NCBI RefSeq assembly: GCF_003253735.1
Contig: NZ_QKYW01000005.1
Coordinates: forward strand, 186,001 to 250,000
Source of the DNA: Pseudomonas sp. URMO17WK12:I2
GTDB taxonomy: Bacteria; Pseudomonadota; Gammaproteobacteria; Pseudomonadales; Pseudomonadaceae
Length of the DNA: 64,000 nt
Reading direction: 5' to 3'
The position numbers and the translations under genes were made by a program. The notes beneath the pieces are model-generated. The model was given only the letters and a program-made list of their open reading frames with translations, was not told the DNA's origin and did not search any database. Shown here piece by piece: positions 2,864-60,745 of this stretch (within the stretch, counting starts at the first letter, position 1; each line of letters begins with the position of its first letter).

Positions 2864-5800
2864 ATGTCTCTGGCCGAAATCCGTCTGGACGACAAATACC
2901 GTCTCGCGACGGGCCATTTGTACCTCACCGGCACCCAGGCGCTGACGCGTCTGCCCATGCTGCAGAAGCAGCGCGATACAGCCGCCGGACTGAATACCGC
3001 CTGCTTCATCTCCGGCTACCGTGGTTCGCCCCTGGGCGGGCTGGACAAGAGCCTGTGGGAGGCTCGAGAGTTTCTGCAGCAGAACGCCATTCACTTCCAG
3101 CCGGGGGTCAACGAGGAGCTCGGGGCCACGGCGGTATGGGGCAGCCAGCAGACCAATCTGTTTCCCGGTGCGCGCTACGACGGCGTATTCGCCATGTGGT
3201 ACGGCAAGGGGCCTGGTGTCGACCGCAGCGGCGACGTGTTCAAGCATGGCAACTCCGCCGGCGTGTCACCCCATGGCGGCGTGCTGGTGCTGGCCGGCGA
3301 CGACCATGGCTGCAAGTCCTCGACCATCGCGCACCAGAGCGAGCACGCCTTTATCGCCGCCTCGATGCCGGTGCTCAACCCGGCCAACGTTCAGGAAATC
3401 CTCGACTACGGCATCATCGGCTGGGAGCTGTCGCGCTACAGCGGCTGCTGGGTGGCGCTGAAAACCATCGCTGAGAACGTCGATTCTTCGGCGGTGGTGG
3501 ATGTCGACCCGCAACGCATCCAGGTCACCCTGCCTGATGACTTCGAGCTGCCAGAAGACGGCGTACATATTCGCTGGCCCGACCCGCCCCTGGCTCAGGA
3601 AAAGCGCCTCAACGTCTACAAGATCTACGCGGCCCGTGCCTTTGCCCGTGCCAATGGTCTCAACAAGGTGATGCTCGACTCGCCCAACCCGCGCCTGGGA
3701 ATCATCACCACCGGCAAGTCCTATCTGGACGTGCGCCAGGCACTCGACGACCTGGGGCTGGACGAGGCGCTCTGTGCGCAGGTTGGTCTGCGTGTGTTGA
3801 AGATCGGCATGAGCTGGCCGCTGGAACCGGTATCGGTGCACGGGTTTGCCGAGGGCCTGGACGAGATTCTCGTCGTCGAGGAAAAGCGCAGCATCATCGA
3901 GGATCAGTTGACCGGGCAGCTCTACAACTGGCCGGTTGGCAAGCGGCCTCGGGTGGTGGGGGAGTTCGACGAGCAAGGCCAGTCATTGCTGCCCAACCTG
4001 GGTGAGCTGACCCCGGCGATGATCGCCCGGGTCATTGCCCGGCGCCTGGCGCCGATCTACACCAGTGCTGCAATCGAGGCGCGCCTGGGCTTTCTCGAAG
4101 CCAAGGAAAAGGCTCTGGCGGCGCGCAGTTACAACACCGTGCGCACACCGCATTTCTGTTCCGGCTGCCCGCACAACAGCTCGACCAAGGTGCCTGAAGG
4201 CAGTCGCGCGATGGGCGGCATCGGCTGCCACTACATGACCCAGTGGATGAATCGCAGCACCGATACCTTCACCCAGATGGGCGGCGAAGGGGTGACCTGG
4301 ATCGGCCAGGCTCCGTTCACCGACACGCCCCATGTGTTCCAGAACCTGGGCGATGGTACCTATTTCCATTCCGGGCACCTGGCGCTGCGCGCCGCCGTGG
4401 CGGCGGGGGTGAACATCACCTACAAGATTCTCTACAACGATGCGGTGGCCATGACCGGCGGGCAGCCCGTAGATGGTGAGCTGCGTGTCGATCAGCTCAG
4501 CCAGCAGGTATTCGCCGAAGGGGTCAAGCGCATCGCGGTGGTCAGCGACGAGCCGGACAAGTACCCGAGTCGCTCGACCTTCGCACCTATCACCAGCTTT
4601 CATCATCGCCGCGAGCTAGACGCCGTGCAGCGCGAGCTGCGCGAGTTCAAGGGCGTGTCGGTGATCATCTACGACCAGACCTGCGCGACCGAGAAACGTC
4701 GCCGCCGCAAGCGCGGCAAGCTGGTCGACCCGGCACGTCGTGCTTTCATCAATGCTGCGGTGTGCGAAGGCTGCGGAGACTGCAGCGTGAAGTCCAACTG
4801 CCTGTCGGTACTGCCGCTGGAAACCGAGTTGGGCCGCAAGCGGGAGATCGACCAGAATGCCTGCAACAAGGATTTCAGCTGCCTGGATGGCTTCTGCCCG
4901 AGCTTCGTCACCGTGCACGGCGGCCAGCTGCGCCAGCCCCAGGCGCTCGGTGCCGGAGCACTGTTCGTGGCCTTGCCGGAGCCGCGGCAACCGTCGCTCG
5001 AACGGCCCTGGAATATCCTGCTACCCGGTGTCGGCGGCAGTGGCGTGACTACCGTGGGTGCGCTGCTGGGTATGGCGGCGCACTTGGAAAGCAAAGGCTG
5101 CACGGTGCTCGACCAGGCTGGCCTGGCGCAGAAGTTCGGTCCGGTGAACACCCATGTGCGCATCGCCGCCCGGCAGGACGATATCTATGCCGTGCGCATC
5201 GCCGCCGGTGAGGCCGACCTGCTGATCGGCTGTGACCTAGTGGTGGCCGCTGGTGAAGACGCGTTGGCCAAGCTCAACGAGAAGGTCTCCCACGCGGTGA
5301 TCAATGAGCACGAAGCTGCCACGGCGGAGTTCACCCGCAATCCCGATGCCCAGGTGCCTGGACCAGCGATGCGACAGGCGTTGATCGATGCCGTCGGTGC
5401 GGAGAAAACCTGGTTCGTCGACGCGACCAACCTGGCCACCCGCCTGCTCGGCGACAGTATCGCCACCAACCTGTTCATGCTCGGCTACGCCTATCAGAAG
5501 GGACTGGTACCCCTCAGCGCACAGGCCATCGACAAAGCTATTGAGCTGAACAACGTGGCGGTCGAGTTCAACCAGCAGGCCTTTCTGTGGGGGCGCCGTG
5601 CCGCCTATGACGCTGCCGCCATCGAGCGCCTGGTGCGTTCGCCGGGGGCGCAGAGCAAGAGTTGCACCACGCTTGATGAGGTCATCGAAGATCGTGTCAT
5701 ACGCCTGACGGCCTATCAGAATGCCCGTTATGCCGAGCGCTATCGCCAGTTGGTCGGTCGCGTCCGCGCCCGTGACAATGATCCGCAGCAGCGGCTGACC

Positions 5801-54080: not shown

Positions 54081-54138
54081 TTGCACGGGTTTCGAGGGGC
54101 AATAAAAACCCCGGCCTATTGACCGGGTTTCTTGAGTT

Positions 54139-54434
54139 TGGCTCCGCGACCTGGACTCGACAGCGCAGCTGAACGCGCTTCAGCGCGGCCCCGAAGGGGT
54201 GAGCGCAGCGAATAACCTGGGACGCAGTCCCTGGTGAGAGTCCGGCGGATACAAAAAAGCCCCGGCTTAACCGAGGCTTTCGAATTTGGCTCCGCGACCT
54301 GGACTCGACAGCGCAGCTGAACGCGCTTCAGCGCGGCCCCGAAGGGGGGAGCGCAGCGAATAACCTGGGACGCAGTCCCTGGTGAGAGTCCGGCGGATAC
54401 AAAAAAGCCCCGGCTTAACCAAGGCTTTCGAATT
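54139..54434 (-). repeat. Two 148-bp tandem repeats carrying the tRNA-Asn 3' end
   Basis: Units 54139-54286 and 54287-54434 are nearly identical (two substitutions seen). Each begins (plus strand) with the last 22 bases of tRNA-Asn including CCA, then a hairpin-rich spacer, then the tRNA terminator. The third copy of the 22 bases, at 54435, is the real tRNA gene; spacing is exactly 148 both times. No integrase is nearby. Confidence 0.9.
54403..54430 (-). terminator. Terminator of tRNA-Asn
   Basis: Minus strand AAGCCTTGG-TTAAG-CCGGGGCTT followed by TTTT. The same hairpin occurs once more within the upstream repeat unit (about 54255-54282). Confidence 0.85.
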
Positions 54435-54510
54435 TGGCTCCGCGACCTGGACTCGAACCAGGGACCCAATGATTAACAGTCATTTGCTCTACCGACTGAG
54501 CTATCGCGGA
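54435..54510 (-). tRNA. tRNA-Asn (anticodon GTT)
   Basis: 76 bases with encoded CCA. Acceptor TCCGCGA/TCGCGGA, D arm GCTCAGTCGGTAGAGC, anticodon loop CTGTTAA (GTT), T loop GGTTCGAGTCC. Its 3' end is duplicated twice downstream as part of the 148-bp repeats. Confidence 0.96.
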
Positions 54511-54575
54511 ACGACGACGCGTATCCTACTGATTACGAAGGGGAAGTCAAGCATCTGCCGACTTCCCCTGGCAAC

Positions 54576-60286: not shown

Positions 60287-60362
<76 letters not shown>

Positions 60363-60421
60363 ATCTCGGATGCCACAACCGGTTCTTCGGAACAGGTTGA
60401 GTTGTAAAGAAGGGCATTTGC

Positions 60422-60497
60422 GTCCCCTTCGTCTAGTGGCCTAGGACACCGCCCTTTCACGGCGGTAACAGGGGTTCGAGTCCCCTAGGGGACGCCA
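60422..60497 (+). tRNA. tRNA-Glu (anticodon TTC), copy 1
   Basis: 76 bases with CCA. Acceptor GTCCCCT/AGGGGAC, anticodon stem CCGCC/GGCGG around CTTTCAC (TTC). Identical to copy 2. Its synthetase gene gltX is directly upstream. Confidence 0.96.
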
Positions 60498-60546
60498 TTA
60501 TTTCCAGCTGCAGCGCCTTGGTGCTGCAGCCAGACCGCAAGGTTCT

Positions 60547-60622
<76 letters not shown>

Positions 60623-60669
60623 ATCCACGACAGGCCAGCCTAGCGCTGGCCTTGTTCTTCGAAGGTTTC

Positions 60670-60745
60670 GTCCCCTTCGTCTAGTGGCCTAGGACACCGC
60701 CCTTTCACGGCGGTAACAGGGGTTCGAGTCCCCTAGGGGACGCCA
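60670..60745 (+). tRNA. tRNA-Glu (anticodon TTC), copy 2
   Basis: Same sequence as copy 1. Last tRNA of the array, 25 bases before the terminator. Confidence 0.96.

Follow-up and report, generated by a model that had tools for sequence, protein, structure and literature searches.

Why does the 3' end of a tRNA gene recur at fixed steps downstream of that gene, and does the repeated unit do anything for the cell? This question is raised by a tRNA-Asn locus of Pseudomonas in the 64-kb stretch of DNA analysed here (the window). The first-pass annotation had noticed that 22 bases of tRNA-Asn, CCA included, recur twice downstream at 148-base steps, and this is correct. The last 22 nt of the tRNA-Asn (GTT) gene (54435..54510; ARAGORN, and Rfam RF00005 with 71.3 bits) run from the T loop to CCA (54435..54456). 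An exact repeat search finds them again at 54287..54308 and 54139..54160, making three exact copies at 148-nt steps. All three, like every other feature of the array described below, are on the minus strand. There is no further copy on either strand of the window at up to three mismatches, and the chance expectation for one more exact 22-mer in 64 kb is about 7e-9 (base counts alone).

In order of transcription, the locus consists of a promoter-like site (TTGACT-16-TAGGAT, 54523..54550, from a consensus scan only), the tRNA-Asn gene, a terminator, a spacer, a tail, a second terminator, a second spacer, the last tail and an outer terminator. Each 148-nt unit comprises a tail, a terminator and a hairpin-rich spacer, and the two full units are identical at 127 of 128 positions when the outer terminator is left out of the comparison. 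The repeat period delimits 126-nt spacers at 54309..54434 (unit 1, terminator plus hairpin-rich core) and 54161..54286 (unit 2). The intrinsic terminator of unit 1 (54398..54430) is a hairpin with a T run that folds at -15.9 kcal/mol before the T run, and that of unit 2 (54250..54282) folds at -17.9 kcal/mol. Both are absent from the output of a simple terminator scan, which gave the outer one only (54103..54127, listed on both strands). It had been claimed that a copy of the terminator accompanies each tail. This holds for the two inner positions and fails at the outermost tail, where the terminator (54110-54127) has a different sequence. Nearby genes are uvrB, aspC (the name used here for the gene of an aromatic amino acid transaminase) and, in convergent orientation, the gene of a response regulator of the sigma-54 type, which we take to be FleR-like.

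Could this simply be a tandem duplication of whole tRNA genes? That candidate was rejected because ARAGORN sees a single tRNA at the locus and no complete second gene. Rfam reports nothing but tRNA above its threshold there. Elsewhere in the same genome no other tail-only array was found among 57 matches to TCGANTCC-N11-CCA, a pattern limited to tRNAs with this T loop, and the non-Asn tail repeats lying within 300 nt on the same strand are whole tRNA genes. The window also holds a tandem duplication of a whole tRNA pair (Ala-Glu-Ala-Glu, 60287-60745). A covariance model built from Pseudomonas array units (R1) matches unit 1 at 54287-54391 with 127.9 bits, this unit belonging to the model's own alignment, and unit 2 at 54139-54243 with 130 bits. 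A weak R1 match on the minus strand at 3944-4040 (17.2 bits, E 0.15) is perhaps another dispersed hairpin repeat.

Distribution, copy number and the question of integration

A scan of a species-level genome collection for pairs of exact Asn tails whose starts are 127-157 nt apart gave 61 contigs of Pseudomonas and Stutzerimonas in which the array lies behind the tRNA-Asn gene linked to aspC. All 61 contigs have two or more tails. They include one MAG titled Gammaproteobacteria and one complete chromosome (L127). Within the genus, 70 of 298 genomes match one unit somewhere, many of them only through the tail and terminator or through a dispersed piece. Two or more tails (up to three mismatches) are present in 27 of the 30 loci fetched from the genus; the other three lie on short or cut contigs (L046, L049) or contain N (L057). 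Of the 90 loci examined, which are not 90 independent species because the two collections overlap, 87 have AspC next to the array. FleR is downstream in only 10 of the 90, many loci ending too soon to tell. A further 20 loci, from 19 genus genomes with shorter matches, have a single tail each (up to five mismatches), and four of these are the Asn-Pro-Lys operon. A decayed array unit with a damaged tail lies behind a tRNA-Asn gene at L140:392-497. Across 185 genomes of the class, R1 finds only the genome studied here and one genome of the same family, whose match is a dispersed repeat without tails.

Assembly error had been named at the outset as what could undo the observation. The recurrence of the array in the 61 contigs and the 27 genus loci means that it is neither an assembly artefact nor the scar of a recent island. 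As far as sequence comparison can tell, the array is shown to be an old attachment of the aspC-adjacent tRNA-Asn gene in Pseudomonas and Stutzerimonas.

How has the array changed over that time? Among 88 arrays with 127 units (tails up to three mismatches; over-long or N-bearing spacers dropped), one extra tail is found in 54, two in 29 and three in 5, and the period ranges from 142 to 160. The median difference between units of one array is 0.031 (44 pairs) versus 0.183 between first units across loci. Loci of the Stutzerimonas kunmingensis group are near-identical (aspC distance 0.007-0.010) and have two or three tails. Repeated unequal crossing-over, the origin first suggested, fits: likeness within an array exceeds likeness between loci, one to three extra tails are carried, and near-identical loci vary. 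Moreover, the variable letter of the tail equals the letter of the host tRNA in 129 of 129 units. In the 10 genomes checked, the two or three tRNA-Asn genes found by pattern share this letter (eight genomes of one type, two of the other). Therefore, the array keeps pace with the tRNA, whether through recombination, through selection or through the two together. Terminator-like sequence is present after 126 of the 129 tails that precede another tail and after 78 of the 89 last tails, and terminators persist while their sequence switches between types. Judged from these alignments, the copies are shown to be homogenised and to vary in number, with tails and terminators maintained. The Asn array of one genome (G254, L184) contains, between its second and third tails, an insertion that we presume from its motifs to be IS66-like.

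The other origin first suggested was a minimal mobile element using the tRNA end. What would support this? The array does have a tRNA gene and a displaced 3' fragment in direct orientation, the combination by which tDNA islands are recognised. It resembles islands of the Islander type (a regenerated tDNA plus a displaced 3' fragment) in its direct downstream fragment and T-loop boundary. It differs from them in having a 126-nt spacer without integrase or other genes. A tDNA-integrated genomic island was rejected because the interval is 126 nt, rather than kilobases, and has no integrase gene. According to the available portion of PMC4383910, Islander rejects candidates that are under 2 kb or lack an integrase, from which we infer that tail arrays would not be listed there. 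Ordinary tDNA islands have the layout seen at two other places of this genome, outside the window, where a different tail recurs at 15.7 kb (G000:C1:586452 and 602125) or 5.1 kb (G000:C3:225434 and 230542) with a phage-integrase domain between or beside the copies.

A related possibility is that the array is a remnant of site-specific integration, its units being att-type duplications in tandem that a tyrosine-recombinase element left behind after recombining at the T loop of tRNA-Asn. In favour of this, the tail starts in the T loop, one of the three crossover sub-sites of tDNA islands given in the available text of PMC4383910, and such arrays are borne by tmRNA genes, which are island targets too (see below). 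Nevertheless, the unit contains no gene. The nearest phage-integrase domain on the contig (PF00589 search only) is at C5:83,672, 156 kb from the array at C5:240,139, and there is none within 150 kb. The site is a single orthologous one across species, the same site and spacer being shared by two genera and diverging slowly. Phages and plasmids have no match over most of the array (the best cover 14% and 18% of the query), and there is no array match among viral contigs. Taken with these observations, an integration remnant is unlikely, and the mobile element first suggested finds no support.

Selection and predicted RNA structure of the spacer

If the array is old, is its spacer free to drift? 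The spacer core differs between loci at a median of 0.108 of sites (0.071 in the part called P2 and 0.125 in the hairpin insert), versus 0.372 at fourfold sites of aspC in the same comparison, which covers 1711 pairs from the 59 of 73 aligned loci with usable aspC. Third, first and second codon positions of aspC differ at 0.359, 0.126 and 0.093. The gap between spacer and fourfold sites indicates selection on the spacer, and as measured by divergence the spacer is shown to be under purifying selection. This bears on the idea that the array is a neutral tandem duplication, maintained by nothing but unequal crossing-over. Such a duplication would show concerted evolution and changes in copy number, as the array does, and some genomes have no array or a decayed unit. 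However, the spacer diverges about as slowly as first and second codon positions, even though homogenisation within arrays leaves divergence between species unslowed, and there are compensatory changes in the spacer. Neutral maintenance is thus distinctly unlikely.

What might selection be acting on? A structure was proposed for the RNA and assessed on 73 distinct first units. In our naming it consists of P1 (GGACUC with GAGUCC of the tail), P2 and the hairpins P3-P6 (54309..54361 in unit 1, from the alignment and repeat matches; part of this region is related to the centre of a dispersed palindromic repeat). The structure pairs 92.8% of cells versus 90.3% in shuffles. Cells with both sides changed number 46 versus 10.0 in shuffles (0 of 500 reach 46), pairs with both sides changed 5 versus 3.0 (7 of 500 reach this), and the covariation score is 0.062 versus 0.022 (0 of 500). 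Further pair types are not above chance (16 versus 16.4; 421 of 500). According to the tool's own warning, the relatedness of sequences inflates significance in such shuffles. The covariation comes mostly from P6 (A-U 46, G-C 15, U-A 12) and P3 (C-G 48, G-C 16). P1 is nearly invariant and has neither both-side changes nor covariation, so its pairing rests on conservation only. P2, whose 3' strand is a direct half T arm (GTCCCAGGTT, 54362..54371 in unit 1, conserved in the alignment), has retained a mismatch at its centre in 62 of the 68 rows that have letters there. A UNCG loop caps P4 in 63 of 73 rows, as expected for RNA read in the direction of the tRNA, which is not decisive because the other DNA strand reads GNA loops. 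Left unconstrained, RNAalifold picks another consensus fold than the proposed one, and folds of single sequences barely beat shuffles (z -0.90, -0.29, -1.54, -0.02 and -1.37). L080, folded singly, does form P1 and P2 along with three hairpins, and its acceptor strand remains outside P1.

Another clue comes from a stretch that faces the tRNA itself. Each spacer in the window holds GGACTCTCACC[A]GGGAC, an inverted repeat (54375..54391 in unit 1 and 54227..54243 in unit 2) that is complementary to the T arm of the tRNA at 15 of 17 positions and whose first six nt can pair with the next tail to form P1. None of 5000 spacer shuffles reaches 15 of 17, for a stretch that was selected post hoc. As for the longest contiguous complement, it is within chance, both to the T arm (183 of 500 shuffles) and to the tail alone (200 of 200). 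Of 98 fetched units with one T-arm type, 94 have A as the bracketed letter of this anti-T-arm and none has T. Of 31 units with the reverse type, 19 have T, 8 a deletion and 4 A. When 72 loci are placed on an aspC tree, three changes of tRNA type are seen, and the letter changed in the same way in a mean of 2.9 of three independent pairs; the sign test gives p 0.25, and three pairs cannot reach significance. This tracking is a lead for pairing with the cell's own tRNA-Asn rather than proof of it.

Likeness to the E. coli tyr-tRNA repeats

The nearest known counterpart is the tyrT/tyrV repeats of E. coli (RtT/RttR, Rfam RF00391). Behind tyrV of E. coli K-12, the terminal 19 nt of tRNA-Tyr, CCA included, recur at 178-nt steps. 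There are four RtT matches: three end at the three further tails, one at each, and the other is upstream of tyrV. In the minimum-energy fold, GGGGAAGGAT of the repeat pairs with ATCCTTCCCC of the tail, a length reached by 7 of 500 shuffles. Both arrays have tandem tRNA tails and a long, hairpin-rich spacer complementary to the tail. They differ in the tRNA, in the period and in the tail copy, which is three nt shorter at its 5' end in E. coli. Moreover, each Pseudomonas unit has an intrinsic terminator, whereas none is seen after the E. coli tails.

Are they one family? This was rejected, as neither a sequence match nor a model match is seen either way and the inserts align within chance. RF00391 is not among the 14 Rfam matches up to E 5 at the array locus and has none in the whole genome, although the E. 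coli control was detected. R1 does not detect RtT at the E. coli locus, and alignments of the E. coli and Pseudomonas hairpin inserts are not significant (85 and 65 of 1000 shuffles). By its layout, the Pseudomonas array is a real and conserved variant of this kind of array, which differs from the E. coli tyr-tRNA/RtT repeats in its tRNA and in the terminator that every unit contains.

The two may also be alike in their building material. About 40-50 nt of the 3' half of the spacer match the central part of a palindromic repeat, roughly 200 bp long, that is dispersed in this genome and the genus (L058-L077 except L061; G000:C1:893974, C4:230765 and C5:150656). That the spacer is a whole such repeat with both terminal arms was rejected, since only the central part is common. 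These MITE-, REP- or BIME-like repeats of Pseudomonas have no tail, P2, anti-T-arm or terminator of the array kind. None of the 19 fetched cases has a tRNA gene within about 400 bp, and two other loci (L187 and L189) have tRNA genes about 1 kb away. In E. coli, rtT resembles dispersed BIMEs, according to the available part of an attenuator survey that cites Bosl and Kersten 1991 for rtT and holds that rtT could play a role in the stringent response (PMC2965389). Both arrays thus combine a tRNA tail with sequence akin to dispersed palindromes.

What, then, does the 148-nt unit do? It may be a conserved tRNA-tail cassette that works like the E. coli tyrT repeats and yields an RtT-like read-through RNA, a proposal built on sequence and analogy that falls just short of an even chance. 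In this scenario, some tRNA-Asn transcripts would read through the first terminator. The spacer would fold into a multi-hairpin RNA able to close on the tail that follows, by a GGACUC/GAGUCC helix from which the acceptor strand and its CCA stay free, and transcription would end at the next terminator. Cleavage at tRNA-like 3' signals might then free an RtT-like small RNA with a tRNA-like end. The anti-T-arm would keep the unit complementary to the T arm of its own tRNA-Asn, and the RNA may act on read-through or misfolded precursors. The array itself could have arisen when a tRNA end was duplicated together with a piece of a dispersed palindromic repeat, and would grow or shrink by unequal recombination. 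Production of tRNA-tail RNAs from the array is plausible by analogy with RtT.

One observation that counts against a read-through RNA is the terminator before every spacer. Perhaps the function is instead exercised in DNA or in termination. The unit would then be a fail-safe terminator with a BIME-like hairpin block that separates the tRNA from convergent genes, its tails only giving the register for recombination. The upkeep of terminators through changes of sequence type speaks for this, as do the two-strand listing of the outer terminator, the convergent regulator gene beside it and the relation of part of the spacer to dispersed palindromic repeats. In addition, BIMEs, which E. coli rtT resembles, are reported as bidirectional terminators and attenuators in the available text of PMC2965389. 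Nevertheless, a conserved P2 and anti-T-arm and exact tails are needless for termination. The neighbour is not the constant either, given how few of the 90 loci have FleR downstream, though many of the 90 are cut short. A termination role is the main rival and somewhat unlikely, while an RNA-level role remains the best bet at a little under one chance in two.

Tail arrays at other tRNA and tmRNA genes

Until now the tyr-tRNA repeats of E. coli seemed an isolated curiosity. Now that their layout is seen at a different tRNA across two genera, with a spacer that changes as slowly as constrained codon positions, and that further arrays are seen at tRNA and tmRNA genes, the function of such repeats can be tested by comparison. 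Such arrays might also give rise to tRNA-tail RNAs and to wrongly drawn island boundaries. The further arrays come from a survey of 274 genomes of the class for a real tRNA tail followed by a tail-like end without the preceding T (not a normal tRNA), at gaps of 106-136 and 76-105. The pattern did not require tail identity, and its reversed control gave 0 among the matches listed. Arrays whose second tail copies the first occur in 6 of 273 other gammaproteobacteria, the genome studied here being left out. They involve tRNA-Gly (L166, second tail 20 of 22 letters), tRNA-Met (L167, initiator-like by our own reading, and L168, with tails at 143-nt steps), tRNA-Lys (L172, L173), tRNA-Pro (L176) and tmRNA (L170, L171), the 3' tail of the last being repeated once downstream with a terminator-like hairpin. 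The candidates L174 and L175 were set aside, as their second tail is not a copy of the first. Among 299 genomes of the phylum seven match. Six are Pseudomonadaceae that have the Asn array, and the seventh (G615) lies outside the class. In it two tRNA-Met genes about 8 kb apart (L177, L183) have tail arrays that begin with the same spacer.

Do these arrays have anything in common beyond their layout? R1 has no match at E up to 1 in L159, L166-L168, L170-L177 or L183, so they are analogous to the Asn array or too diverged to show homology. The start of the surveyed tails in the T loop is partly imposed by the search pattern. Of 10 units tested, two have a hairpin just before the tail copy beyond shuffles (L168, 1 of 200; L170, 0 of 200), that of L170 being very stable and directly before the tmRNA tail copy. 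An anti-tail common to the arrays is not seen, only E. coli Tyr standing out among the 10 units (2 of 200 shuffles). It is possible, though doubtful, that tRNA-tail arrays form a general, uncatalogued class in which unrelated hairpin-rich spacers, some from dispersed palindromic repeats, have repeatedly been joined to tails that start in the T loop, and whose small RNAs, with 3' ends like those of tRNAs, pair and co-evolve with their own tRNA. RtT and the Asn units would be two independent members and the tmRNA arrays a third branch. No description of tail arrays in Pseudomonas is among the literature matches listed, whose coverage leaves out most subscription journals. The Lys-tail units L172 and L173 have GGATTCTCACC or GGGTTCTCACC where the Asn units have GGACTCTCACC. 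In either form the hexamer could pair with GAATCC of the Lys tail, through one G-U pair in the case of L173, and the arrays would then differ by a compensatory change.
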